Assembly (NCBI RefSeq): GCF_024713945.1
Contig: NC_134680.1
Span: forward strand, 67,001 to 131,000
Direction of reading: 5' to 3'
Source: Dermatophagoides farinae
Lineage: Eukaryota; Arthropoda; Arachnida; Sarcoptiformes; Pyroglyphidae
DNA: 64,000 nt
The position numbers and the translations under genes were made by a program. Positions 1-18,400 of this stretch are shown piece by piece (positions within the stretch are counted from its first letter, which is position 1; the number at the start of each line of letters is the position of its first letter). A model generated the notes under the pieces. That model was not told where the DNA came from, did no database searches, and saw only the letters and a list, made by a program, of their open reading frames with translations.

Positions 1-576
1 TTTTTGTTCATATTTGTCCACAATTTGATCATTACATTCGTTGGCAAGATCCACGGTGATTTTCGTGCCATTCTTGAATCGAATAACGTGTGTTTTTAAT
101 TGCTGTAAACAATGTTCAGTTCTGGCTGTGACCTTCGATAATGGCCATATGAATCGATGTTTATTCGGTACCGGAATCGGATCATGATGATCACAATATC
201 TGACCCATTCAATTTGACGGCATAATGTTTGCTGTATTTGTTGATATCGAAGCTTTGCATACCAAATAACTTGTAATGCTAATGATGGTGAACACCAACG
301 TCGGGCATTCAATTGATAGCATTGTAATTGTTCCCAAATGATGCAACATGTTTGCCATAATGTTGATATCCATGTATGACGGCCAAATGGACTGAAATCA
401 CCGGCTGCATGCTGTTGACATTGCTGGATCAGATCCAATTGTCCATTAAAACATTTTAGAACCAAATCATTTGGCTGTTCTATCGATGCTGGTAATGATG
501 ATGCCTTGATAATGATCATCATCATCATCATGATTATGCATGTGAAACATGAAGAAATTATTCGCTTCGATTGCAT
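1..576 (-). CDS. Secreted Cys-rich protein, CC-x2-W family member 1 (C-terminus outside window)
   Basis: An uninterrupted minus-strand frame of 192 codons runs from the ATG at 576 to the window edge, so the C-terminus is missing. The N-terminus looks like a signal peptide: basic start MQSKR, then a hydrophobic stretch (about residues 7-23) whose core is five Met codons from a CAT/ATG microsatellite, ending near KASS. The mature part has Cys at 42, 53, 77, 78, 86, 95, 119 and 128, giving C-x10-C-x23-CC-x2-W-x4-C-x8-C-x23-C-x8-C, then further Cys at 156 and 181. The CC-x2-W-x4-C-x8-C-x23-C core matches the protein at 11208-12476 exactly in spacing and the one at 6017-9902 in part, so I group the three as paralogues. 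Unlike those two, no membrane segment follows the last core Cys within the window. I do not recognise the family; an extracellular role is inferred from signal peptide and cysteines only. Confidence 0.75.
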   Translation of the reverse strand, partial: MQSKRIISSCFTCIIMMMMMIIIKASSLPASIEQPNDLVLKCFNGQLDLIQQCQQHAAGDFSPFGRHTWISTLWQTCCIIWEQLQCYQLNARRWCSPSLALQVIWYAKLRYQQIQQTLCRQIEWVRYCDHHDPIPVPNKHRFIWPLSKVTARTEHCLQQLKTHVIRFKNGTKITVDLANECNDQIVDKYEQK

Positions 577-1864
577 ATTTCGAATGTTTTGATTAGTTTC
601 TCAGATCAACAAATAGTTTGATTTATCACCATGTATCATCATTGGCTTTTGATCAAATCAATTGTTTGCTCCACTATGCAATAAAGCAATAACACCCCCC
701 ATTTCCAAGTAACAGATTCGTTATCATTTTGACTTTGTTTTTTAAATAAAATTTTAACTTATCCATTCGAAAACACAGGTCCACAAGACAGCCGACATAA
801 TGCAGAACAAATCAATCAATCAATCAATAAATGAAAAGCATCAGACTAATAAACAAACAGATCAATCATTCAACAATCAGATTTGTGTCTTTTTTCAACA
901 ATTTTCCGAAGAAAAGTCGGATAACTGTGCATAATGAAAATTGTGAATTTGTCCAGATTTTCATTCATTTCCGATTTGACACCTTAAATAATACGATACG
1001 ACTTGGTTGTTTATTTTGACACTATCCGAATGAATGATAAAGTTTCATATCACTCGAGAACGAATCAAGATGGGTTCAGTGTAACAACAGAGTGATAACT
1101 TGATTCGAAGGACAAACCGCCAGACGTATTCGATATGATGATGGTGATATTAATTTGATTAATGCAACCACACATACACTAATCATCATTGAATTGAATC
1201 TCTTTTTTCAGTACATTTCTATGAAGAAGAACCCTTTCATCATCCATTGATCGCATGATGGATTAATATATCAGTATATCAGTATATCGATGATCAAATG
1301 AATGAATCACAAAACGATAACGAAAACAACATCATTATCATTCTTTCATTCATTCATTGAATTGTTTTTCACAAAAACGAAAACAGATCAAACATTGTGT
1401 TACATGTGTCATTTCAGTGAGATAATAATCTACCATCGAAACATGCAAGCAATTCGAACATTCCAACACATACACACACACATACGCAGATATGGAAATC
1501 AAATTTCAAAAAATGGAAATCTGAAAACCATGATCAAATAACGGACGTGACCATCATCGCGTCCCACTCTTGAATCCTTACCACATACCATACTCACTGT
1601 TGTAATTGACGACAAATTTATCAACACAGAGGTCTCCGCCCTGTTGTTGTCGTTGTTGTCGTATCTACATATCTGTATATCCGATTTCAGATTACGAATC
1701 GGGTTGCTTCATTCTCAGTCTCTATAAATATCGACGCATTTTCCAGTTTGTGCTTCATACGGTAACCATTCACCGAATAATAAATAACAGTCTTCTCGTG
1801 CCCACCATAAATTTTTCGACTTTGATTTTTGATTTGCTTTCATCCGAAACAACAAACGACAACA
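577..1864. other. Divergent intergenic region with FABP promoter
   Basis: About 1.3 kb separates the start codons of the minus-strand Cys-rich gene and the plus-strand FABP gene. Only AT-rich sequence with short ATC/GAT runs and a tandem ATATCAGT-type repeat near 1265-1290 is visible. Short open frames here have no conserved character. The promoter-like element at 1722 is listed separately. Confidence 0.6.
1722..1729 (+). promoter_or_regulatory. TATA box of the FABP gene
   Basis: The motif CTATAAAT lies about 140 bp upstream of the FABP start codon, a normal distance for a TATA box with a roughly 110-base 5' UTR. It is the clearest TATA-like element in the spacer. Inference from motif and position only. 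Confidence 0.5.
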
Positions 1865-2325
1865 ATGGCCATCGAAGGAAAATATCAAATGGAATCTTCG
1901 GAACATTTCGAAGAATTTGTCAAAGAAATGGGTAAGTACAAGTAGTGATTTGTCGGATGTGGCTTCAAATTTGGTTAATGTGTTTGTGTTTAGGCCTTGA
2001 CGTCGACATGACCAACGTTGATCTCTCGAAAACTTCGACCATGGAAATCTGCAAAGATGGTGACGTGTATCACATCAAAAGCGAAACGGCCGGCATTGCT
2101 CATGAGATCAAATTCAAAGTGGGCGAAGAATTCGAAGACGACATGAATGGACATAAATTCAAGAATGTCGTCACCATGGAATGTGATAACAAAATGGTGC
2201 AGAAGAAAACATCGGCCGATGGTGGCAAAGTGGTGAATGTTGTGAGAGAATTCACTGATGCCGGTTGTACAGTGAAATCCACCTACAACACTGTCACTTG
2301 GACTCGTGTCTATAAACGCATGTAG
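1865..2325 (+). CDS. Cytosolic fatty-acid-binding protein (FABP, mite group-13 type)
   Basis: Two exons, 1865-1931 and 1994-2325, joined across a 62-bp GT-AG intron (phase 1), give 132 residues, the usual FABP length. The start MAIEGKYQMESSEHFEEF is the classical FABP N-terminus, and the helix-turn-helix follows across the splice. Lipid-carboxylate ligands of the family are in place: Arg107 (VVREF) and the R-x-Y pair Arg127/Tyr129 in TRVYKRM. Members bind long-chain fatty acids inside the beta-barrel and carry them in the cytosol; in dust mites this family is allergen group 13. The middle of the protein carries extra Asp and Thr in the helical lid region and is clearly diverged, so it may be a paralogue rather than the canonical group-13 protein. 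A TATA box lies upstream and AATAAA at 2431 downstream. Confidence 0.93.
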
Positions 2326-2390
2326 ATCATGATGATGGCACATTAATCGAGCCATCATTGGCTTATTATTTGATTTGGGATTTTAAGATT

Positions 2391-2395
<5 letters not shown>

Positions 2396-2423
<28 letters not shown>
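2396..2423. repeat. (CT)n microsatellite
   Basis: Fourteen uninterrupted CT units lie in the FABP 3' UTR just before the polyadenylation signal. Seen directly. Confidence 0.95.
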
Positions 2424-2427
<4 letters not shown>

Positions 2428-2430
2428 GAG

Positions 2431-2436
2431 AATAAA
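2431..2436 (+). terminator. Polyadenylation signal of the FABP gene
   Basis: AATAAA lies 106 bases after the FABP stop codon, directly after the CT microsatellite. First canonical signal downstream. Confidence 0.6.
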
Positions 2437-5400
2437 ATTTTTCGTTCGAATTTCAAAAATTCAATTGCATTCGCCACCGTCAGATGGCGAATTTGATTTT
2501 TACTTTATTTTTTTCGGCAAACGAAATTATTTATTAATTGAAAAAACTAGTAGATTTAAATTGTATAACAAAACAATGAATAATATCATGATGAACAATG
2601 GATGTGTGGAAATTGACACAGCAATGTGAATTTAACACCATAATGCACATATCCGAATTGTCATCCCATGATCAAACATTGAACATCAAACAATAATCAA
2701 TCAAAAGATGTAGGTATGGCGATTGCCATTCATTCTCAGTGTTGGGTTTGGCCATCAATCTATCTCTGTCTCGATGTTCTGGAACATTCACTCGATGCAA
2801 ACAACAACATCAACAACAACATCATCAACAACAAAAACAATGCCATTTCCAATTGTTGTTTGCGTGTTCATTGTTAATTAACGAGTTGGCATCTGAGATG
2901 AATAAATAATTTCTTCGCCATTTCATTGTCAGGGTACAATCGAATCCACTTTCGTCATCACCATACTAATGATGATCATTCATTCATTCATTCATGATGG
3001 TGGTGGTGGTGGTGGTTCATAACAAAACAAAAACCGAAATGGAAATTGTTCACGTAATCCAGCAATCAATAAAGTAATCAACAGGTCTATGTTTATGTGA
3101 AAAAGGGAAATTTAGAAAGTTGTGAAAATCACACAAGACCAACACACCCTGATAATAATAATGATTGGTAATCATTCTCAACCACAACGATTACAATCGA
3201 TCCATGTTGATTGTGTTTTAACCCTTAAATCAAATATACCCATTCAGCACTGGTTAAAACATTTTGCTTTGGGCTCTTTCGGTTTGTTTGGTCAACGCAC
3301 TGATCATCACATCAATCAGGCAAAATTCACATCAAGTTTTTTTTGGGAAAAAAATGTAGAAAACCAACAATAATTATCGAGCTGGTGACGACATTTCATT
3401 TCATTCATTACCAACAACAAGTTGAATCAAAATTAATCACACACACACACAATTAACGTTGATGATGATGATAATAATGAATGATAATTTGCCAGTTTGA
3501 TTCCAGCCATCCAAGGTCGGATGTATTCAATGTGTGTGTGTGTTCGGAATTGTGAAAGTAAAATATTTTTCCCTTTCTTCTCTACGATTCTTTAGTTTAT
3601 GACATATTGACTAATTATATTGAGTAATTATCGAGTGATTGATTGATTGACCGATGCAGTCCACGTTTGTTGCATGATATGCAAATATGAATGATCCACC
3701 TGCCCAAATTGTGACACATGACGATGAATCATATCCATACGGTAACAGAGAAGAAAACTTGATCCTAGAAAATGAAACAAGTTTAGATTGGCGAATATTT
3801 AGTGATAATGATGACGACTGGCCTTTCACAATATCCATCGACATTGGCCCATTCCAGTTTGGATAATTAATTCATTGCTCATTCATTTAGAGGCTTCTGT
3901 TGTTACACTTACCAATCAATATGTCTCACTAACAACAAGCTCATTCCGAACATGAATGCAGTAAATCAAATGGCAAATCATCATATAGTTAATAGTTAAT
4001 GTATCCAATGGATAATTTCGTTTCCAAATTAGCTTTTTTATGGCACACAAATATAAACTGAATAGACTGAATCCATCAAATATGTGTTTATTACAGCCCA
4101 ATATCGACTAATACAATAGTCGTCGATTAATGTCAATGCAAACATCATCATCATCATTTCCACCATGATTGTTGACTATGATGATGACAAGCAATAAACA
4201 ACATGTGTCATTAAAGATGAATTCAGATGACAATCATTCAATCAAATCAGAAATCAGAAAAAATCAGCAGTTTTTTATTATCATCACCACTCAAGTCAAC
4301 AAGGTTATCTAAAAAATGGCAATACCGATTCAGTCGGTTGGATCATTCAAGTGAAAAAGGCGGAAAAGGAATGCTCAGCAAGGATCATGCGTCGTAATTT
4401 TTCCAAAAATCCGAACCAATTTTTTTCTCCCAAAGAAAACGATTGATTAATTAAACCTGCGGGGTGAAACAAAAACAAAAAAAAAAACAGAAATAATAGA
4501 CTCGTCCAACATTTCTTATCTTTGTCTTGATATTTTTTCAATATTTATCACCACTGGCCATCTTCAAACTTGATTTATGATAGCCACCACCGCACAACAA
4601 CAATCGTTCAATCCATCAATGGATTTAAATATACAGTGGTTGGGTCAAAGTTTATGGATGGGCGTTCTCATTTTTGGTAGCAGTACCTGACCTTGATGGT
4701 GGTGGTGGTAGGCAGTGTACTGTCAATATAGCAACAACAATAGCAGTAACTCAGATAAAGAATTGTTTTGCCTCGCAAAAAACCGTTGTTTCATTATCCT
4801 CTGTTGAATGGCAGGCCCTGTCAAAAAAATTCTTGGGCAACCTGCAGGTGATAGCCATAGATTGTAAATGTCTACAAGTGGTAGAACATTCGACAATTTT
4901 CTAATCCATAACACACTCGGTTTTCGACGAAAAAAATTCAATTTAAATTGAGAGCTCCCACGCAAAAGTGTGTGTAGTGTTGTGCATGTGCTTGCTGCTG
5001 TTGCTGTTTTGGTGCAAGTGTCTCAAAGTCGAGATCAACAAAATTAAAAAAATCAAATAAAAAACGAAACAAATCAAACATACTTTCTCTCCTCACATTT
5101 TTAGCCTTCGAGATCAGGCGACTACCATCCATTTATCCATTTATTAATTCATCCATCCGACTATCAATTTTTTTTTCTTTATAGCTGCGCCTGTTTTTTC
5201 TCTTTCTTCTTCTTCTACTTCACAAACAACAACAACAACAACAACACATAAATGCAATTTGGTCATCATCATGAACAGAACGCATTTCACATATATTGAA
5301 TTGTTGATCCTTTTTCTTTCTATTTTTCGTTTCGTTTCGTTCGTTCGTTAGTAGTGCTGCACAGCCTAAATAAAATAAAAAAATTTCGATCGCTGCTGAT

Positions 5401-6016
5401 CTGATCTGTTGATCTGTCTGAAATGTTTGAAAAAATGTTTTAATCACACTCAACTTGTGTTCAGTCATCATCAATCCAAATATCTCGAATCGTTCGTTTG
5501 GTCGGTAGTAGTCTGCTTTTCATTTGGAAATTGTTGCCAGTTCGAATTTCCATCACCATTATCATCATTAACAACCACCATCATCATCATTGTTATTATA
5601 ATCAAACAACAATCGGTCGTATCCAGACCGCCAAACTGATTTTTTTGTTTTGTTTTGTTTTATTTCCCCAACGCCACGCCAACTCTTTTTTGACAATCTC
5701 TCTGTGATCGTTGTAGTTGTAGTTGTATATAACGGTGGTGACTCTTTTTTTTCTCGGCTTTAATTTTGAATTTATTCATCGGTTGATGATTTTCTTCTGG
5801 AGACACGGTGACAAAATTCTTTTCTGTGAATATCGAAAATCGTCAAATTCAAAAAAACACTTGTCACTTGAATAATAAAGAAAAGAGATAGTAAATAAAA
5901 AAAGTAAAGTGAGAAAACATTGCCATTCGAATTTCTCATGTCCCACCAATATATAAAGTGACAATCGAATGGAATTATCGATTTGAACGACTGCTGCTAA
6001 TGCTGCTGCATCCATA
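2437..6016. other. Gene-free spacer of 3.6 kb
   Basis: No convincing gene is visible between the FABP 3' end and the next Cys-rich gene. The stretch holds GGT, CA and ATC/GAT microsatellites and AT-rich filler. The only faintly protein-like segment is the minus strand at about 3615-3790, a short frame preceded by a splice-acceptor-like TTTCTAG. It resembles no family I know, and I do not call it. Confidence 0.5.
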
Positions 6017-9000
6017 ATGTGTGCAAATATCGGAATGAAATTTTCATTAAATTATTTTTGGCCACTGTGTTTGTGTTGGCTATTGATGAATCAATCATTT
6101 TCATACGCCACATGCCATCATCATGATGATAATCAATCATCGATACATTTCACTAGTCTCAATTCAAGTTCACAACATAATCAACGATCACAACGATCGG
6201 TACCAGAATTCGAGGCCACATTGAATGCGATGAAATGTGCTCTACGAATCGTTGGACTTCAAGTTTCAGGTATGTCTTTTTCGTTAGTTGATGCAATATT
6301 AACAAATTTAACAAATCCAACCATGTAAATTTTCAACATTTTGTTTTATCAAGCCATAGATCATTATGCTAGAAAGAAACAGTTTCATTGACCTCTCTCT
6401 CTATATATCTCAACACATTCAAAATCTGATCATAATCATTACTGATGGCCGGGTTATGAATTTTGTTTTTTGAATTTCAAATTCAATTTTTTTTTCATTC
6501 ATTTGAATTTCGATTTCAGCATTTCTACACACACATGTGTCATGTGTCTGATCAATGAACCCTTCAAAATCACTTGTTGGATGTGAATTTTCCTTTAAAA
6601 TTCAAGTGTTTTTTTATTTCATATAAGGGCAACATATTGAAATGTCAGTCTGAAGTCGATGATCGGATGCGGAACCACACAATTGATGATCACCAATTAG
6701 GATGTGCTAAACAAACAATTGACAAACAGACCATCCACAGACAAGTTCATCAATGATGATGATAATTGAAGGCAAGTGACAATCATTTGATTGTCTCAAC
6801 ACTTGATTTTTTCTTCAATTTGACCAAATCGTTTATTGACCATGGTGATGATTGCGTTCTATCACGCAAACCTATCTATCATATTTTGATTGTCATAGAT
6901 TTGTCTATAAATTGGCTATTTCCTCTCTCTTTCTCTTCACATCCAAATTTGGACATTTACAGCAAACAAATGTGCCATCAGAAACTATTTGTATCAACAC
7001 AAGCCATATAGATTGGATAATTATCTGGCATAGTTTGTTTCTTTTTCTTTTTCTTTTTTTTGAGAAATTCAGATCATATCCAAATCTATGTGGTTTCTGT
7101 GTCATAATGTGTTTTATTTTCCCTGTTGTTGATGATGTTAAATGATGATGATTGGATCGAATGGATCATTTGATGTTTAAATTAGTCACATATTTAAACG
7201 ATGACATTTTCTCTACATATACAGGAAAATGGTGAACTTTTGGAGAAAAAATGCAAATCAATCCATGTGTGTTTCAATGTTTCAATGTTTCAGTGTTTCA
7301 ATGTACTTTATTTTCCTTGATGAATGAAATATGAAATGGCAATTTGATTATTGATCATAATTAATATTCATCTGGCTCTTTTTTTATCGACCATTAATGA
7401 TCGCCTGATGATCGTTGCAATAATTGAAATTTCGTTATTTTAGTCAATTAATCGAGGGAAATTGTGTGTGTGTAAACGGTGAATTAATCAACGAGATTTA
7501 CATTTTTTTTCTGTAATTAATAACCAAGGTTTTGAACAAATTAATTTCGTTCTCACTCCAATTTCTTATGGCTGAACAACATTCTAATCCATTCTATTTG
7601 AATCAATGCGGATATAGTATTTATTTATTTGATCATCAGTCAAATTTGTATTGCCTTTTGGCATATTTCATCATCGTATCGATTGTGGCATAAACAAAGC
7701 AACAGGATGTCCATTATCATTGGCAGTAATAATTGGTGGTTTTTTTCAGAATTGATATTACCACACTGGTGAATATATTATTATATTCTATTACTATGGT
7801 AGTAATATATCAATTTTGTCTACCAACATTGCAACCTGTCAAGCAAACTATTTAGTGGTGAATGAAAACAAAACACGAAAACACCAAGTATGCTTCGATT
7901 CCATATATTGATGACATGTGATGGAATGGAAAATTATAAATTCCACATACCACTTGCTGTCAATTAATTAACGTGTTGCTACGTGTTGCTAACGATAACT
8001 ATGCCAGTACACCAAATTCAAGGTTATCATTGATCTTGATTTGGAATTTTAATTTTTTCAACCATTTTCTCTGAATAACCATAATGATAAAACACATCAT
8101 TGGTGATGATATGAAGAATTCAATTTTCGTTAGAACCAATAATAATCACACACACACACACACACTGGACAGTTTTATTGATTATTATTCGATAACAAAC
8201 ATCTATTAAATTGATGGTTTTGTTTTTCAAGTGAATGTGCAATAGTTGCGTGAACAAAAAACAAAACAACAACAACAACAGATTTCGATCCATAATCGTG
8301 ATGATCATCTTCTAGTGGCATCCAGTAGCTAGGAGAGAGAGAGAGAGAGAGAGAGAGCTATATTAATATTAATATTAAAATAACAATAATGATGATGGCC
8401 AATGGCCACGTGATAATGATGATGCACCTGCAATGTTGCAAATCGTTTCATCACTCATCACAACAATACCAATTCATTGTCAAGGATTTTCTTTTTCTTG
8501 GATTCATTCATTTATGCAAATTCTTTTGTCTTGCCTGGCGGATGCTTGGCGCTGTGTTGTAATTATATGTTGATCATTCTCTAGTTATATGATGTCCTCC
8601 TTCGATCATGTTGATGATGACAATTGGATTTTGATGATCCAAAATAAAAGTAATTTTTTCGCTTTCTATTAGGATATTTTGTTGAAAATGAATTGGTGTG
8701 AATTAGCTAAATTGACGGCATCGAATTTTTTTTGAAAAAAAATTTGTTTCGATTGCATTTTGATTTGATTTGTGTGTGTATGATTGCATTGACCCTGTTT
8801 TTGTCAATTTTTTGTAATTGGGCAAAAAGTTATTTTCTCTGACACAAAATTGATGGACAGAAACAACGTGCTGCCAATGGAAATGTGTGAAGAACCAAAT
8901 TATCATTTTATGATTCTGTTGTGGATTTTTTCTGTCTTGTTTGGTGGTTGTTTGTTTGAATAGAAATTAGCTCCTGGTTTCTCCGATTTCTCTGATTTCT

Positions 9001-9902
9001 CCGACAATAAAAATATGATGACCAAATGCTAATAAATAAAAATCAAACAGGTTTTCGATGAGCATGCAATAAGTGTAAGAATTTCGTATCCATGTTGATG
9101 ACCAGAAAAAAACAATCAAATTGAAATGGCTGTTAAATAGCTAGAGAAAAGCAAACTGAAACTGACCTTTTTTCAATTAATTCAGCATTATGATTATGAT
9201 TTTTTCATTTTAATTAATTTTTTTCTTTGTTTCCAATCGAATGTAGAACACCATAACAACATGTTCATGTGTTGCGGCTTATGGAAAATGAAAACATTCA
9301 TGAAGGACACGGCTGATCGTGTGTGTGAAAATGCCCATGAATCGAAACGTGTATTCGATGATTTCATGACCGACGAGCTTATCTATGGCAAATTCACACA
9401 TTCCATTCTAGGTGATGATACATTGGATTGTAAAAAATATCCGGAAGGATCACCTGCCTGTGAACGTTTGTTTGCCTTCATAACATTCATCGTGGTCATG
9501 ATCATTCTGTTGATATTGCTGTTGGTTATGGGTTGTTGTATGGCCACCGTTTGTTGGCATCGATCACGTCGTCAATATCAACAATTATTACGGCTCAAAT
9601 TAACCAATCTGGATTCAGACGAAAAGAATGTCTTTCTGCAGGACCATTATGATGCAATAGAGAAAGCACATTCGACGAAGCGAAGAAACTGGACCAATAA
9701 TCTCAAGGTATTGATTCCAGGTCGACGACTAGAAATGAAACAACGTCCCATTGATCGACTCAATCAATCACAAGTGGATTCATCCGGGAAATCTAGTCCC
9801 GATTCGGCTGTACCACCATCAACAAATTCAACGACAACATCGCGTAACACATCCACCTTGACGTTGAATGAAAATCATCACCAAGAGAAACCTAAACAAT
9901 GA
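6017..9902 (+). CDS. Single-pass membrane protein, CC-x2-W family member 2 (two exons)
   Basis: Exons 6017-6269 and 9247-9902 join in phase 1 across a 2977-bp intron (CAG/GTATGT donor, TGTAG acceptor), giving 302 residues. Residues 7-29 form a signal peptide (MKFSLNYFWPLCLCWLLM core; Met1 or Met7 could be the start). The ectodomain has Cys 33 and 74, then the family core CC-x2-W-x4-F-x8-C at 93-109, then C-x34-C-x9-C. The position that is Cys in both paralogues (four residues after Trp) is Phe here. A strong transmembrane helix begins at about residue 159, right after the last ectodomain Cys, and is followed by a Cys/Arg-rich stop-transfer segment and a roughly 115-residue Ser/Thr/Asn-rich cytoplasmic tail. 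This predicts type I topology. Function unknown. An additional small exon inside the long intron cannot be excluded. AATAAA lies at 10220. Confidence 0.78.
7271..7304. repeat. Short tandem repeat of a 9-mer (GTTTCAAT-type)
   Basis: About four copies of GTTTCAATG-like units in a row, one with an A-to-G change, inside the intron. Seen directly. Confidence 0.8.
8147..8165. repeat. (CA)n microsatellite
   Basis: Uninterrupted CA run inside the long intron. Seen directly. Confidence 0.9.
8332..8357. repeat. (GA)n microsatellite
   Basis: Uninterrupted GA run inside the long intron. Seen directly. Confidence 0.9.
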
Positions 9903-10219
9903 TGGTCACATTCCATTCAACCATTTGCTCAACACCTTTAGTGAGAGCTCTAATTTATCATTCTCTCTCTCTCATTCTCATTTATTTGTACTTTTTTCGT
10001 GGATCTCGAATTTCTCATCATCAAATCAATCAATCAATTATCGATACAACAACACACACACACACACACATAATATCCATAACTAGAAGTGCCAAATATC
10101 ACCCATTTACACACTCACGCACACAAACACACAATGTGATTCTTTGTATTGACCTTTGTAAATCAAATTGTGGTATATAATAATCTGTATTTGGATATAA
10201 TCGTCATCATAACATAACA

Positions 10220-10225
10220 AATAAA
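10220..10225 (+). terminator. Polyadenylation signal, CC-x2-W member 2
   Basis: AATAAA, overlapping a second copy, about 320 bases after the stop codon at 9902. Confidence 0.5.
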
Positions 10226-10854
10226 TAAATAGTAAAGCTTTTTTTTGTTTCGTATAAAAAAATCTCCCAAAAATCGTCTTTCCATTGTTGTCAACACAAC
10301 AATGGTCGTTGTTTGACCTCATGGGATTTGATTGTTCGAATGTTGTTCTCCGTTTGTCAAACACAGATTCGTTTTTGATCGATATTCGATTGATTCAAGG
10401 TTTAGTTTTGAAATGGGCACCACTTATTAACTTGATTATGACAAGTCAAGAATATTGCACGACCAAAGATTAGAAATTGAACACTACTACCATACATACA
10501 AACGAATGAATCAAATCAAATCAATTGATTGCATTTCAAATCGCACAGCGATGAATGATTGTATGACATTTTCACTTTCACTATTATCATCATCCAATCA
10601 TTCAATTGTATCGTCGTTTCCAAGCAAAGAATGGCAACACTTTTAGTTGATGTGCCGGCAATCCATAATCATTATTCATGATGTGAATGAATAAATGTTC
10701 TATTCGATGATCATCATCATTATATTATAATTGGGTTATTATTATTATACATACAAAACATGCAACATTTCCCCATTTCTCGAATTGGTTCATTTCACAT
10801 CCATTCACAATTGGCAATCAAAATGAAATTTACTCGTTGTCAATGTTTTTGTAG

Positions 10855-10878
10855 CATCATCATCATCATCATCATCAT
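10855..10878. repeat. (CAT)8 microsatellite
   Basis: Eight uninterrupted CAT units. Seen directly; typical of the whole window. Confidence 0.95.
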
Positions 10879-11207
10879 AGACAGTTTTGTTCCAATTCGA
10901 ACAATTCAACAAACAAGCCAATAATAAAACAATATGTCAATGTGATTGGTGCACACCTGGTTAAACGATTGATGACGATAAAGAGAAATCGAATGCACAC
11001 TCTTAATGAATTCGGGTTTTCAATTGTTCAGCCTGTGAGTGCGTGTGTCTGTGATCATAATAGGAAAAATGATTTCTGCTGCTGCTGCCTGTATAGACAC
11101 GACTGGTGATGCGGTGTGGCAATCATTTGGAACTTTCGATTCGACGATGACATCATTACATCTGCATCTGGTATAGTTTCACCTTTTCAACCCTTTTTCG
11201 TATCAGA

Positions 11208-12476
11208 ATGACAATGTTATTGGCGAGTAAAACATCATTGATTCTATTTCTGATTGGTCTACTAAATCAGAATCGAACATCTGAATCGCTTTATCCATAT
11301 AAATTATCCAACAACAACAACAACAACAATCCATATTATGCACGTTCATTGACGGAAAATTTACTTGCATCATTGGCCGGAATGACATCGACAACAGCCA
11401 ACAACCATCTGTTGAATGGCCATCATTACGATAAGAATTCCATTATCTACACCAACCAATATGTATCGGATCCATTTCGATTATTAACCATGAAACAAAT
11501 GCCCTTTATAACGGCTCAATCCTCACCATCATCGTGGATGTATCAACTGCCATTCGCCACTGGTAGTGCTCAGTGTGATCAATCATTGATGTTGGAGCCA
11601 GAATTTCATCGTTGTCGTTCGAATGCAGCCGTTTATTGGCATCAAGGTTTGGCTAATCCTCAATATCAACAATCGTCGTCATCCTCATCCTCATCATCAT
11701 CATCATCATCGGTATCGACCAAGCATACATGTTGTTTTCTTTGGGATCTTGTCGATTGTATGGAAGAAGCAATACGAAGACGATGTAGTTATTCATTCGA
11801 CATATTTCGTCGTAACCGAGTGGACTATGTAGCACGTATTCAATCGAATCCATTATGCTATAATCATCTGTACGGAAGTTTTAGTTGCATGCAGGAGAAT
11901 TGGATTCTTCTTCTCGCTTTCATCATACTGGCCATCTTCATTGCAGTTACAATTTGTGTTGCTTGTTGGACATTGGTCTGCAGGAAAAAATGGAGAAACA
12001 AAAATGATAAAGGATCTGATTATAATGCAAATGTTTTACCTACTGCTATCGGTGGCAGTAGTGGATATGTTGATTATGATCTTGAACGACGTGACACTCA
12101 ACAACAACTGAATCGATCTCGTCGACGATCATCGCCTAGAACATCAACACGTCGAGTGTCGAATGGTCATGGTCGAAATGTTGAATCCAACACTCGTATC
12201 AAACACATTGATTCCGATGTTGATGATAATGATGACGGTGTCAACATGGATCAAATCTCAGCATCACATACACAGGCATCACCACCATTCAAAGATTATG
12301 AACCTCCAAGACGATTTCATTTCCACCAACATCGATCCCAGTCGCCTCCAGTAGCAGCCACCACAACTAGGCATCACTATTCAATTTCAAACAAACATAG
12401 AACACGATCACCATCAGCGACCGATTATTCACCTCGACCAACATCAGTTGTTTCTGTTCGACAGATTGAAATTTAA
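11208..12476 (+). CDS. Single-pass membrane protein, CC-x2-W family member 3
   Basis: One exon of 422 codons. Residues 1-27 look like a signal peptide (start at Met1 or Met3). A long Asn/Ser-rich ectodomain follows, including a run of 13 Ser at about residues 157-169. The family core is CC-x2-W-x4-C-x8-C from residue 175, then C-x23-C-x9-C, and two earlier Cys match those of the protein at 1-576. A transmembrane helix starts at Trp232, a few residues after the last Cys. The cytoplasmic tail of about 165 residues is rich in RS/SR and basic motifs (RSRRRSSPRTSTRR, HRSQSPP), suggesting phosphorylation. It shares layout (signal peptide, Cys core, helix, tail) with the gene upstream on the same strand and exact Cys spacing with the minus-strand gene at the window start. 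Function unknown; receptor- or adhesion-like topology is inference. Confidence 0.8.
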   Translation: MTMLLASKTSLILFLIGLLNQNRTSESLYPYKLSNNNNNNNPYYARSLTENLLASLAGMTSTTANNHLLNGHHYDKNSIIYTNQYVSDPFRLLTMKQMPFITAQSSPSSWMYQLPFATGSAQCDQSLMLEPEFHRCRSNAAVYWHQGLANPQYQQSSSSSSSSSSSSSVSTKHTCCFLWDLVDCMEEAIRRRCSYSFDIFRRNRVDYVARIQSNPLCYNHLYGSFSCMQENWILLLAFIILAIFIAVTICVACWTLVCRKKWRNKNDKGSDYNANVLPTAIGGSSGYVDYDLERRDTQQQLNRSRRRSSPRTSTRRVSNGHGRNVESNTRIKHIDSDVDDNDDGVNMDQISASHTQASPPFKDYEPPRRFHFHQHRSQSPPVAATTTRHHYSISNKHRTRSPSATDYSPRPTSVVSVRQIEI

Positions 12477-14230: not shown

Positions 14231-15163
14231 ATGCAAAACGACGATGTAATCTGGAGCGTATTAACATCTTCACTTTGTTCATATCAGATCAAGTAAGTGA
14301 AAAAAATCAAAAGTTTTGGTTTGTATTTAAATTTTGACGCTATCAGGACGAAAACACAGAATTTCTGCCGCAATGAGTACAATGTATCGGGACTTTGTGG
14401 CCGTAAAACATGTCCATTAGCCAATAGTCAATATGCTACTGTACGCGAAGAGCAAGGACAATGTTTCCTTTACATCAAAACCATTGAACGGGCAGCATTT
14501 CCATCGAAACTATGGGAAAAAGTGAAATTATCTCGACAATATGGAAAAGCTCTAGAGCAAATCGATGAACAGCTGATGTATTGGCCGAAACATCAGATTC
14601 ATAAATGTAAACAACGACTCACGAAAATCACTCAATATTTGATACGTATGAGAAAATTGGAGCTACAAAGTCCAAAAAAACTTGTCCCATTGGCATCGAA
14701 AATCGAACGTCGAGATAGACGTCGTGAAGTGAAAGCATTGATTGCTGCTAGGCTTGAGAATTGTATCGAAAAAGAACTGTTGGAACGATTGAAAAAAGGA
14801 ACCTATGGTGATATCTATAATTTCCACCAGAAAGCGTTCGAACAAGCCTTAAGTCATGATGTTGAACAAATGCAAGATGATGGGGAAACTGAACGTGAAC
14901 TCGAATTGGAACTAATGTCCGATGATGATGAACAAGAAGAACCAGCGACTGAAACAGTTGAATATGTAGCAGCCGATGATTTTGATGAAAGCAGTGATGA
15001 TGATGACATTGAAGATCTAGAAGCAACGACAATGGCATCGAAAAAGAAGCCCAAAACACCGTCGATATTGTCAAAATCGACGAAAAGGAAAAAACCACAT
15101 GTTGAAATTGAATATGAAAATGAATTCGATAGACCATCCACATCAAAACAACGATTACATTGA
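14231..15163 (+). CDS. MAK16: MAK16 ribosome-biogenesis factor
   Basis: Exons 14231-14292 and 14347-15163 joined over a 54-bp GT-AG intron give 292 residues. Exon 1 supplies the family start (MQNDDVIW) and the splice rebuilds [19 protein letters not shown]. The four Cys of the N-terminal zinc-type motif are present (NFC, GLC, KTC, GQC region), followed by [42 protein letters not shown] and [19 protein letters not shown], all family hallmarks. The C-terminus is acidic (runs of Asp/Glu), then ends in a Lys-rich nuclear-localisation-like segment. MAK16 acts in the nucleolus in maturation of the 60S subunit. A start inside the intron is inferior because it loses the conserved N-terminus. AATAAA lies at 15292. 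Confidence 0.97.
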
Positions 15164-15454: not shown

Positions 15455-18400
15455 TTAAACTCGATCAGAATTACTTTGAAATTCAGATAACGCTTTGATT
15501 GGTGCAATGTTTCGTTTCTGTGATCCACGACGCACTTTTGCCCGAATTTCATCAGGTCGTTCACGACGTACTAACGGTTTCTTTTCCGGTGCTTTCATTT
15601 TCCACACAAATATTGGATACTGATAGAAAAGTCAAATGCAAACTTTTAAATGAGAATAAAAAACATGTCAAAATCACTCACATTAAGTTGTCCATTGATA
15701 CGTGGATATTTAGTGGATGCAACATACGATGATTTCACTGTCAATACAACGGCATTCATGAGATTTTTGGCCGCCTGAATAAGACTTGTTGCGCTATCAA
15801 GCTGCAAAAAAAGAACATGAAAACAATGTTCATTGGATTCAGATAAACTCAAATTCAAAAAAAACTTACACCAGATACGATTAAATTTCCGGAAATATTC
15901 TGTACATCTGCTTTGACTTTGGACGTAATATTCAACTGATGACAATATAAATTGATCATCTGTAGATAGGCGATCAAATCTTTTTTCGTACTAGATTCAG
16001 GACATTGTTCGGCAATTTGACGGGCAAACTTGTCCAATTTGGTGCCATATTCGGAAATTTTTTTCGCTGCATTTATAACATCCATCGTTGTTTTCAATGG
16101 ACCTTTACCACGTGTGAAATCTGTCATTTCCATCATAATCATGCACATTTGTTTGGCTATCACTATGATATCGTTTCCAGTATCATCCCATTTCGCTACT
16201 TCTTTATCGAATTTATTCTTTTCTGTACGGAATGTTTCTACTTGTTGGGCAATTTTTTCTTTTTCCTCTTGCGGTACCAATCGATATGCGTCACGAGCAT
16301 TATTAATACCATGTATCTCGGGATATTCATCGAAATCCGTATGTATGCTTGCTGTATGATGTGAGAAAATAAAACAAAATTAAACAAAACAGAGCAATCT
16401 GAATAGAAAAACTTACATTTCGAACGTGTTTCATATGTATTATTGTCTTCATATTCAATTTCGGTTTCAGAATCCAATTCTTCCACGGTTCGATTCAATA
16501 GGACTGTTCGACGAATTTCTCGTACACCATCATAAACGAGACGTGATGCATCGATAAATTCATTTTCATCCACAACGGGTTTATCGCCATTTTGATTATT
16601 GGAAGCAGTGGCAGCAGCATTTTTCAATATATCCACAGCCATTGAAACACGTTCAGCGAAATTGGTCATTATTTGATCACGAAGACAATTGACTGCTTCG
16701 AGTACACGTTCAGTATAAACACCTGGTTCATAATTATCCATTTCGGCTGTTACGACATTACAAACTCTTGCTGAACGTCCTCGTATAGCACCGGCTGTAC
16801 GATCCAATGTGTCGGCATCACTTTCCTGTAATGCCAACACACATTTGTTAACATCTTCCAGTATGTGGTTTTCTGATACGGCCAGAAAATCATCAATGGT
16901 GGTAATATCATCAACAGCCTCGGTTAATATGCGAACATGATTATTCCATGAATCACGGAATGAGTCCATATTTTCTTGCGCTACTTTCGACTTCGGACGT
17001 ATAGCAAGTATTCGTGCAGCATTTATAACTTGGGGACAAATCGTTTCAATTTGACTGGCTGCAAATCGTACCATTTTCACACCTTCTTCATTATTCGACA
17101 TTGAACAGGCTAGATTGGCAACTTCTACCAATTTTCCAGCATGTTCGTTGAATACGATGGCCAATTCTTCCACTTCGTTTATGTCACCTTTACGTGCTGC
17201 TTCGATCAACACCAATAGTGGTACATTCGTTTCCAAAAATGAATCCGACACATGATCTATAACGGCTTTACGTAGCTGTCGTCGTAAATCTTTTGTTTTC
17301 TGCGTCATATGGTCAATTGCTTTATTCAACGACTCGGATGGTTGTTTTTTCGATGCCTTTGCCATGTATTCCGAAAGGAGATCCTGTAATGCTTGTCGTA
17401 CGGCATTACATTCGGCAACGATACGTTCACGACGTTCATCACGGGTACACGACGAATCTGCCATTAATGCTGCACCGCTTATGATGGATTCTAGACGTTC
17501 TTCCAATGCTGGTCTTGTTTTGGCCTCATTATAAGCCAACGGATCCATAAAGATGGAATCATCAAATTCATCCAATGCTGAGGCCAGTTCTCCTGGACCA
17601 TCATAGATTGAATTGACGATATTGTTTGGACCGGATTTTCCTTGAGCAACATCACTAATAGTAGTGACTGCCTCACAAACTTGACGGAAAACAAAATCAC
17701 GATTTTCACGTGCGGCAGGAATTTCTGGATGTCGTACATATACTTTGGATGCGGTCAATAGCATCATACAATTCTTTTTGAGCACAGCACGTGCAGCAGC
17801 TAGATCTTCTTTTAGTTTGGGATCTTTCAATTCAGCTTGACGTTTAGCGGCCAGATTAATCAATTCGGCTGTATTACGACCAAATTGTCGAAATGATTCG
17901 ACCAATTCGGCTTGGCTAGAGGCATTTTTCACTTTATCCAAATCATTCTCAACAATTTCCAATGATTTCATCAGACGATGTACATCGACCATATCGGCAA
18001 AGATCAACAGGCGTGTAACTGCCGACAATAGATTTCGTGCAGCTTTAACCATACTGTTTCGTTTGATTGATGAACATGGTTCTTCGGCAAATTCTCTCGA
18101 TGCTTGACTCATGATTTCACCTGCTTTACGTACCTCTTCAACAGCGCCCAACATGTCCATTTTGATGTCGGGATTTTCCAAAGCAATTTCTTCACCACGA
18201 ACAATAAAATTTTCCGTTGCTTTTTCAACGGCTGCCACCAATACATGTGCACGTTTTGATCGACCTTTTTTCTTTTTCGATGGACCTTTTGTGTTTACCA
18301 ATGTCGTCACTTGCATAACCAATGGTTCAAGTGTTTTCTCCACCGAATGTGTACGAATTTCCAGATTTTTTGGATCCCATTTCACGTTGAATTGATGAGA

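Follow-up and report, generated by a model that had tools for sequence, protein, structure and literature searches.

Do the three cysteine-rich genes in the first 12.5 kb of a 64,000-nucleotide stretch of the genome of the mite Dermatophagoides farinae (contig NC_134680.1, positions 67,001 to 131,000; this whole stretch is called the window) belong to one protein family, and what do they encode? We give a probability of about 0.6 to the reading that genes 1, 2 and 3 are old paralogues, sharing one undescribed, disulphide-held and probably mostly helical ectodomain (here the CCW domain) on type I membrane proteins, where it would act as a recognition or ligand-binding module. Positions refer to the window, which is C4:67001-131000, unless they are preceded by C4 (coordinates on NC_134680.1) or by an L number (locus labels for genomic stretches). 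The elements of the three genes and of a relative to their left, g0, are listed below (TM, transmembrane; aa, amino acids).

1..576, minus strand: gene 1, N-terminal 192 aa with a signal-peptide-like start, domain 1 and the start of domain 2
C4:66635-67576 (L015:6635-7576): gene 1, whole frame of 313 aa with two domains and a C-terminal TM helix
193..453, minus strand: gene 1, domain 1, C-x10-C-x23-CC-x7-C-x8-C-x23-C-x8-C
6017..6269, plus strand: gene 2, exon 1, with a hydrophobic start, a Ser/His-rich spacer and a single N-terminal core Cys (codon at 6236)
6270-9246, plus strand: gene 2, intron of 2,977 bases, phase 1, splice sites read by eye
9247..9902, plus strand: gene 2, exon 2, with core, TM helix and a 124-aa tail
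9429..9461, plus strand: gene 2, C7/C8 motif C-x2-Y-x3-S-x2-C (CKKYPEGSPAC)
11208..12476, plus strand: gene 3, single exon of 422 aa, with a signal-peptide-like start, low-complexity spacer, eight-Cys domain, TM helix and a 171-aa tail
11574..11888, plus strand: gene 3, eight-Cys domain, C-x12-C, poly-Ser insert, CC-x2-W-x4-C-x8-C-x23-C-x9-C
11904..11960, plus strand: gene 3, TM helix predicted by hydropathy, 5 residues past the last core Cys
C4:57964-58959: g0, three exons, 292 aa, hydrophobic start, 7.7 kb left of gene 1

The CCW domain and its layout

The common domain can be written as C1-x10..24-C2-x~23-C3C4-x2-[WY]-x4-C5-x8-C6-x23..34-C7-x8..12-C8. Its part from the CC pair onwards, with C5 or another residue in the fifth place, was found in both copies of gene 1, in gene 2 and in gene 3. 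The initial annotation had described a core of CC-x2-W-x4-[CF]-x8-C, followed by C-x23/34/23-C and C-x8/9/9-C in genes 1/2/3; these spacings are present exactly there, and only the upstream C1 and C2 had been overlooked. Translated in six frames, the window has this core spacing three times, and none of 200 windows simulated with a first-order Markov model has it. An alignment of 28 domains showed the eight cysteines and a tryptophan or tyrosine three residues past the CC pair. The ending C7-x2-[YF]-x3-S-x2-C8 was recognized in 17 of 30 typed domains (21 if the first gap is allowed to be slightly longer), and in its strict form only gene 2 has it among the four domains of the window.

The gene positions given earlier were right, except that gene 1 runs beyond 1-576 and gene 2 consists of two exons. 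The frame of gene 1 extends past the window edge to C4:66635, revealing a second domain copy, with the spacing CC-x2-Y-x4-C-x8-C-x24-C-x12-C. By hydropathy, the C-terminus has a TM helix followed by a tail of 8 aa; the gene 1 product is therefore a membrane protein and not, as had been considered for this cluster, a secreted one. The spliced product of gene 2 has 302 aa, its splice sites having been read by eye and not from a transcript. In its exon 2 the core, CC-x2-W-x4-F-x8-C, begins at 9270, the last core Cys is at 9461, and a TM helix at about 9471-9527 (hydropathy) starts 3 residues further on. Genes 2 and 3 thus both have the annotated TM helix soon after the last core Cys and the long tail (124 and 171 aa). 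A signal peptide had been proposed for each gene. All three N-termini are indeed hydrophobic, with a best 15-residue hydropathy mean of 2.55 in gene 1, 1.37 in gene 2 and 1.99 in gene 3, a judgement on hydropathy alone by which gene 2 is weak.

We surveyed 22 proteins for TM helices with a hydropathy cut-off. A helix followed C8 in 18, at a gap of 3-26 residues (3-15 if gene 1 and L017 are set aside), and with this cut-off none was found after C8 in g0, L062, L029 and L072. Just past the helix, K+R exceeded D+E in 17 of the 18, as in a type I protein, and their tails measured 3 to 193 aa. From this we infer a type I topology; the cysteine spacing suggests a mostly helical fold. In a typical protein of the family, a single CCW unit (gene 1 has two) would thus lie a short way N-terminal to the only TM helix, beyond which comes a cytoplasmic tail that differs greatly in length between members.

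Two of the cysteines appear to go together. We compared C5 with the N-terminal cysteines in the 21 domains for which the N-terminal part had been transcribed, leaving out L029, L030 and array members and omitting the extra upstream cysteine of the soluble proteins. C5 was accompanied by two N-terminal cysteines in 13 of 13 domains, and where it was missing only one was present (8 of 8), as in gene 2. Since g0 retains C5 and the second N-terminal cysteine, and its clade-mates L062 and L078 have neither (99/95 support), the two cysteines were probably lost together on at least two occasions. This pattern of shared retention and loss predicts a disulphide joining C5 to C1 or C2.

Members of the family in the genome

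In a protein search of the whole genome, gene 1 matched the two-domain L017 (E 7e-14), gene 2 matched L021 (E 3.6e-30), L022 (E 1.3e-9), L023, L024 and L026, and gene 3 matched L029 (E 8.7e-5) and L030 (E 1.9e-4). Family arrays were found at C4:547-551 kb and C6:4612-4622 kb. A hidden Markov model (HMM) of the 28 domains, run on the DNA of the selected loci, matched 38 separate gene loci with E < 0.001, of which 26 had supplied training domains and 12 none. This count leaves out four weak places (C8:920561, C8:1712039, C8:1715068 and C4:1506479), as well as L040, which in the part examined hardly differs from L039. In the window, the HMM matched genes 1, 2 and 3 and nothing else. L039 (C4:1142 kb) and L040 (C4:4952 kb) lie 3.8 Mb apart, and their open frames are very long, at 906 and 1951 aa.

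The three genes had been proposed as diverged members of one family, and HMMs built without the respective subfamily (database size 10,709; gene 3 scored without its poly-Ser run) recovered each of them. The E-values were 5e-4 and 4.1e-8 for domains 1 and 2 of gene 1, 3.6e-4 for gene 2 and 2.1e-7 for gene 3. For all four domains, none of 200 full shuffles and none of 200 shuffles with fixed cysteines reached the score, and eight of nine other left-out relatives likewise scored above all their shuffles. Judged from these sequences, the homology is established, together with the copy number, the layout and the hydrophobic helix after the domain.

The earlier failure to match a known domain was reproduced. 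Pfam scans of the window proteins, their spliced forms and relatives gave no model over its cut-off, and the sub-threshold matches look driven by TM segments or biased composition. Searches of the PDB returned one match for the window part of gene 1, none for an 18-domain profile (E up to 10) and nine for g0. None was credible, the best E-values (0.026 and 0.012) coming from large, unrelated proteins or from another stretch. A tblastn search of one relative against phage records gave no match, as expected. For the CC-x2-W motif or a mite or arthropod cysteine-rich family, no relevant paper was among the matches listed, most subscription journals being beyond reach. The CCW domain is therefore undescribed in the sense of being absent from Pfam, the PDB and the literature searched.

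Because an AG sits exactly 21 bases (7 codons) before the CC pair in 16 of 17 further members checked (the exception is L030), the array-type subfamily seems to share one intron. Grouping gene 2 with the arrays by intron position was rejected, its acceptor lying 23 bases before the CC pair, in phase 1.

The best matches of all three window genes lie elsewhere: at C4:580 kb for gene 1, at C4:5.7 Mb for gene 2, and on C3 and C5 for gene 3. As far as such matches tell, the cluster is for this reason old or assembled, and not a recent tandem array. The local cluster of the initial annotation stands with its three genes, and the further copy sought left of the window was found in g0; a recent local radiation is contradicted by the distant location of the closest relatives. 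When 33 points, a rough count of the separate family places, were scattered randomly on the genome 20,000 times, three fell within 12.5 kb in 14 trials and four within 21.5 kb in one, both figures being rough and post hoc.

Fast evolution, as proposed earlier, is not general, since it did not hold for the array on C6. Among its five copies, the ratio of nonsynonymous to synonymous substitution rates (dN/dS) was 0.14-0.29 in nine of ten pairs and 1.57 in the tenth, on a dS of 0.020. Diversifying selection was thus rejected, and these copies are under purifying selection, though the family is deeply diverged.

Other genes were recognized in the vicinity. Between genes 1 and 2 there is a lipocalin/cytosolic fatty-acid-binding protein frame (PF00061, E 5.3e-5; 1945-2325, plus strand), to our minds reminiscent of the mite group 13 allergens, and between g0 and gene 1 a Chitin_bind_4 cuticle protein exon (L015:4551-5087, plus strand). 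Further right we annotated a MAK16-like ribosome biogenesis gene with Ribosomal_L28e and the Mak16 C-terminal region (14297-15163, plus strand) and a Vinculin-family exon (PF01044, E 3.9e-68; 15855-16280, minus strand), presumably of an alpha-catenin. A large direct duplication lies near the contig terminus, in L009-L012 (C4:1-40000): L010 and L011 share 8.8 kb at 96.6% identity, and L009 and L010 4.3 kb at 97%.

Soluble relatives and DUF1397

By the hydropathy cut-off, no TM helix follows the domain of g0. Its C-terminal half reads C-x10-C-x23-CC-x7-C-x10-C-x23-C-x2-Y-x3-S-x2-C, nearly the spacing of gene 1 domain 1, and matched the CCW HMM with E 1.3e-8, g0 being outside the training set. 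Two further soluble proteins, L062 (E 2.3e-5) and L078 (E 4.2e-4), also matched. In all three, none of 500 shuffles with fixed cysteines scored as high, in L078 narrowly (19.9 vs 19.6 bits), and an intron splits the second Cys of the CC pair, as modelled. In profile-profile comparisons, the soluble set was joined to the whole family with a probability of 95.7, to group A with 90.0 and to group E with 88.7, and poorly to groups B, C and D (0.8, 6.1 and 2.8). Upstream of L078 (C7:131 kb), a frame holds a second soluble-type exon, ending in CTEYTDDSDKC, which suggests a tandem pair of g0-type genes in this region.

The soluble proteins had DUF1397 (PF07165) as a weak top or near-top Pfam match. 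We take this to be the family of the 27-kDa haemolymph glycoprotein, with that protein as its prototype. The C-terminal half of g0 matched with E 0.0012 (18.7 bits), at profile positions 7-114, covering the eight-Cys half; whole g0 with E 0.015 (15.1 bits), L062 with E 0.0011 (18.8 bits), L078 with E 0.014 (15.2 bits) and an exon of L076 with E 3.5e-5 (23.7 bits). None of ten shuffles of the g0 half with fixed cysteines matched DUF1397. A genome search with DUF1397 gave nothing over the cut-off; its three places were L076, L077 (the L062 gene) and L078.

Several results count against this kinship. All scores (15.1-23.7 bits) are below the curated cut-off of 25.7 bits, which keeps the CCW family outside DUF1397 as defined. 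The matches of L062, L078 and L076 fall in the N-terminal half instead of the domain half, and N-terminal halves of the soluble proteins had no significant match to the CCW HMM, although their spacing hints at a further domain copy and thus at a tandem duplication inside these proteins. Of 18 CCW domains scanned, none matched DUF1397 at E up to 1, and most CCW proteins, unlike DUF1397, carry a TM helix and a tail. These matches make a distant kinship of the CCW domain and its soluble relatives to DUF1397 no more than plausible.

A centipede venom review (PMC4379518) and a later venom proteotranscriptomic paper (PMC6878950) name DUF1397 proteins, with function unknown. The 27-kDa haemolymph protein is reported to be up-regulated in fungus-challenged Galleria (PMC4224417). 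It is a rather long shot that an ancient arthropod eight-Cys helical domain gave rise both to soluble body-fluid proteins of the DUF1397/g0 type and to a large, unnamed family of single-pass receptors of the cell surface, expanded in astigmatid mites, with the soluble forms possibly being ligands, decoys or carriers.

Proposed role and alternatives

We propose that receptor-like proteins may use the CCW domain as a module for recognition or ligand binding at the cell surface. In g0 and other soluble relatives this unit would occur free of the membrane, making them comparable to the DUF1397/27-kDa haemolymph proteins, their possible distant kin.

Alternatively, but with little likelihood, the domain could carry hydrophobic ligands (lipids or odorants), mostly tethered to the membrane and soluble in the g0 type, by analogy with arthropod odorant-binding proteins (OBPs). 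A disulphide-rich, probably helical domain, the soluble relatives and a large family with arrays would fit such a carrier, and the OBP-like proteins of Varroa and other chelicerates are likewise small, disulphide-linked and extracellular. They are, however, soluble and differ in cysteine pattern. According to PMC8222343, the six cysteines of Varroa OBPs pair as C1-C6, C2-C3 and C4-C5, and VdesOBP1 has five helices. The eight cysteines of the CCW domain, with their CC pair, do not follow this pattern and pairing, and the 18-domain profile found no PDB chain, in a set that may lack the published Varroa OBP1 structure.

We also regard it as unlikely that the family members serve in structure or adhesion at the surface of cells or eggs and are not receptors. 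Very short tails (8 aa in gene 1, 7 in L017 and 4 in L055b), the low-complexity spacers of gene 3 and purifying selection in one array agree with such a role, but the long tails of other members (124, 171, 182 and 190 aa) suggest work in the cytoplasm.

Convergence of cysteine spacing in unrelated proteins is very improbable, in view of the shuffle tests, the absence of chance matches in the simulated windows and the intermediate genes linking the groups. By hhalign, the subfamilies of gene 2 (A), gene 3 (B) and gene 1 (C) were each joined to group E, with probabilities of 97.1, 97.0 and 73.7. A number of results nevertheless weigh against common descent. The direct links among A, B and C were weak (6.4, 4.6 and 11.8), and core identity to gene 1 was just 22 and 32%. 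Gene 1 domain 1 surpassed its best shuffle with fixed cysteines narrowly (19.6 vs 18.3 bits), and the score of L017 domain 1 was equalled by two of 200 such shuffles. The relatives were partly chosen from open frames showing the CC motif, a bias towards that motif. The tree was poorly resolved, with four of 28 inner branches starred; two of these unite gene 2 and L021, and domain 1 of gene 1 and of L017, respectively, and gene 3 was left unplaced. As A, B and C are linked through group E and only weakly with each other, we consider them distant cousins and not close paralogues.

That gene 2 is a degenerate tetraspanin (PF00335; four TM helices and a CCG motif in the large loop) can practically be dismissed: it too has a CC near a membrane helix and a Pfam match (20.3 vs a cut-off of 32.1 bits), but this match spans residues 67-144 of the exon-2 frame, which are the TM helix and tail and not the CC core, a single strong TM helix follows the domain, and most aligned relatives have a residue other than G after the CC pair.

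Returning to the CCW domain as a putative receptor ectodomain, what was found is an undescribed domain family rather than a new mechanism in biology. In a mite that is an important source of allergens, 38 or more gene loci are brought into one definable family, for which there are now a profile, a disulphide prediction and a topology open to testing. For DUF1397, a family of unknown function, this provides an initial link in evolution, though as yet a weak one. Mite genomics would thereby gain a new family of surface proteins.

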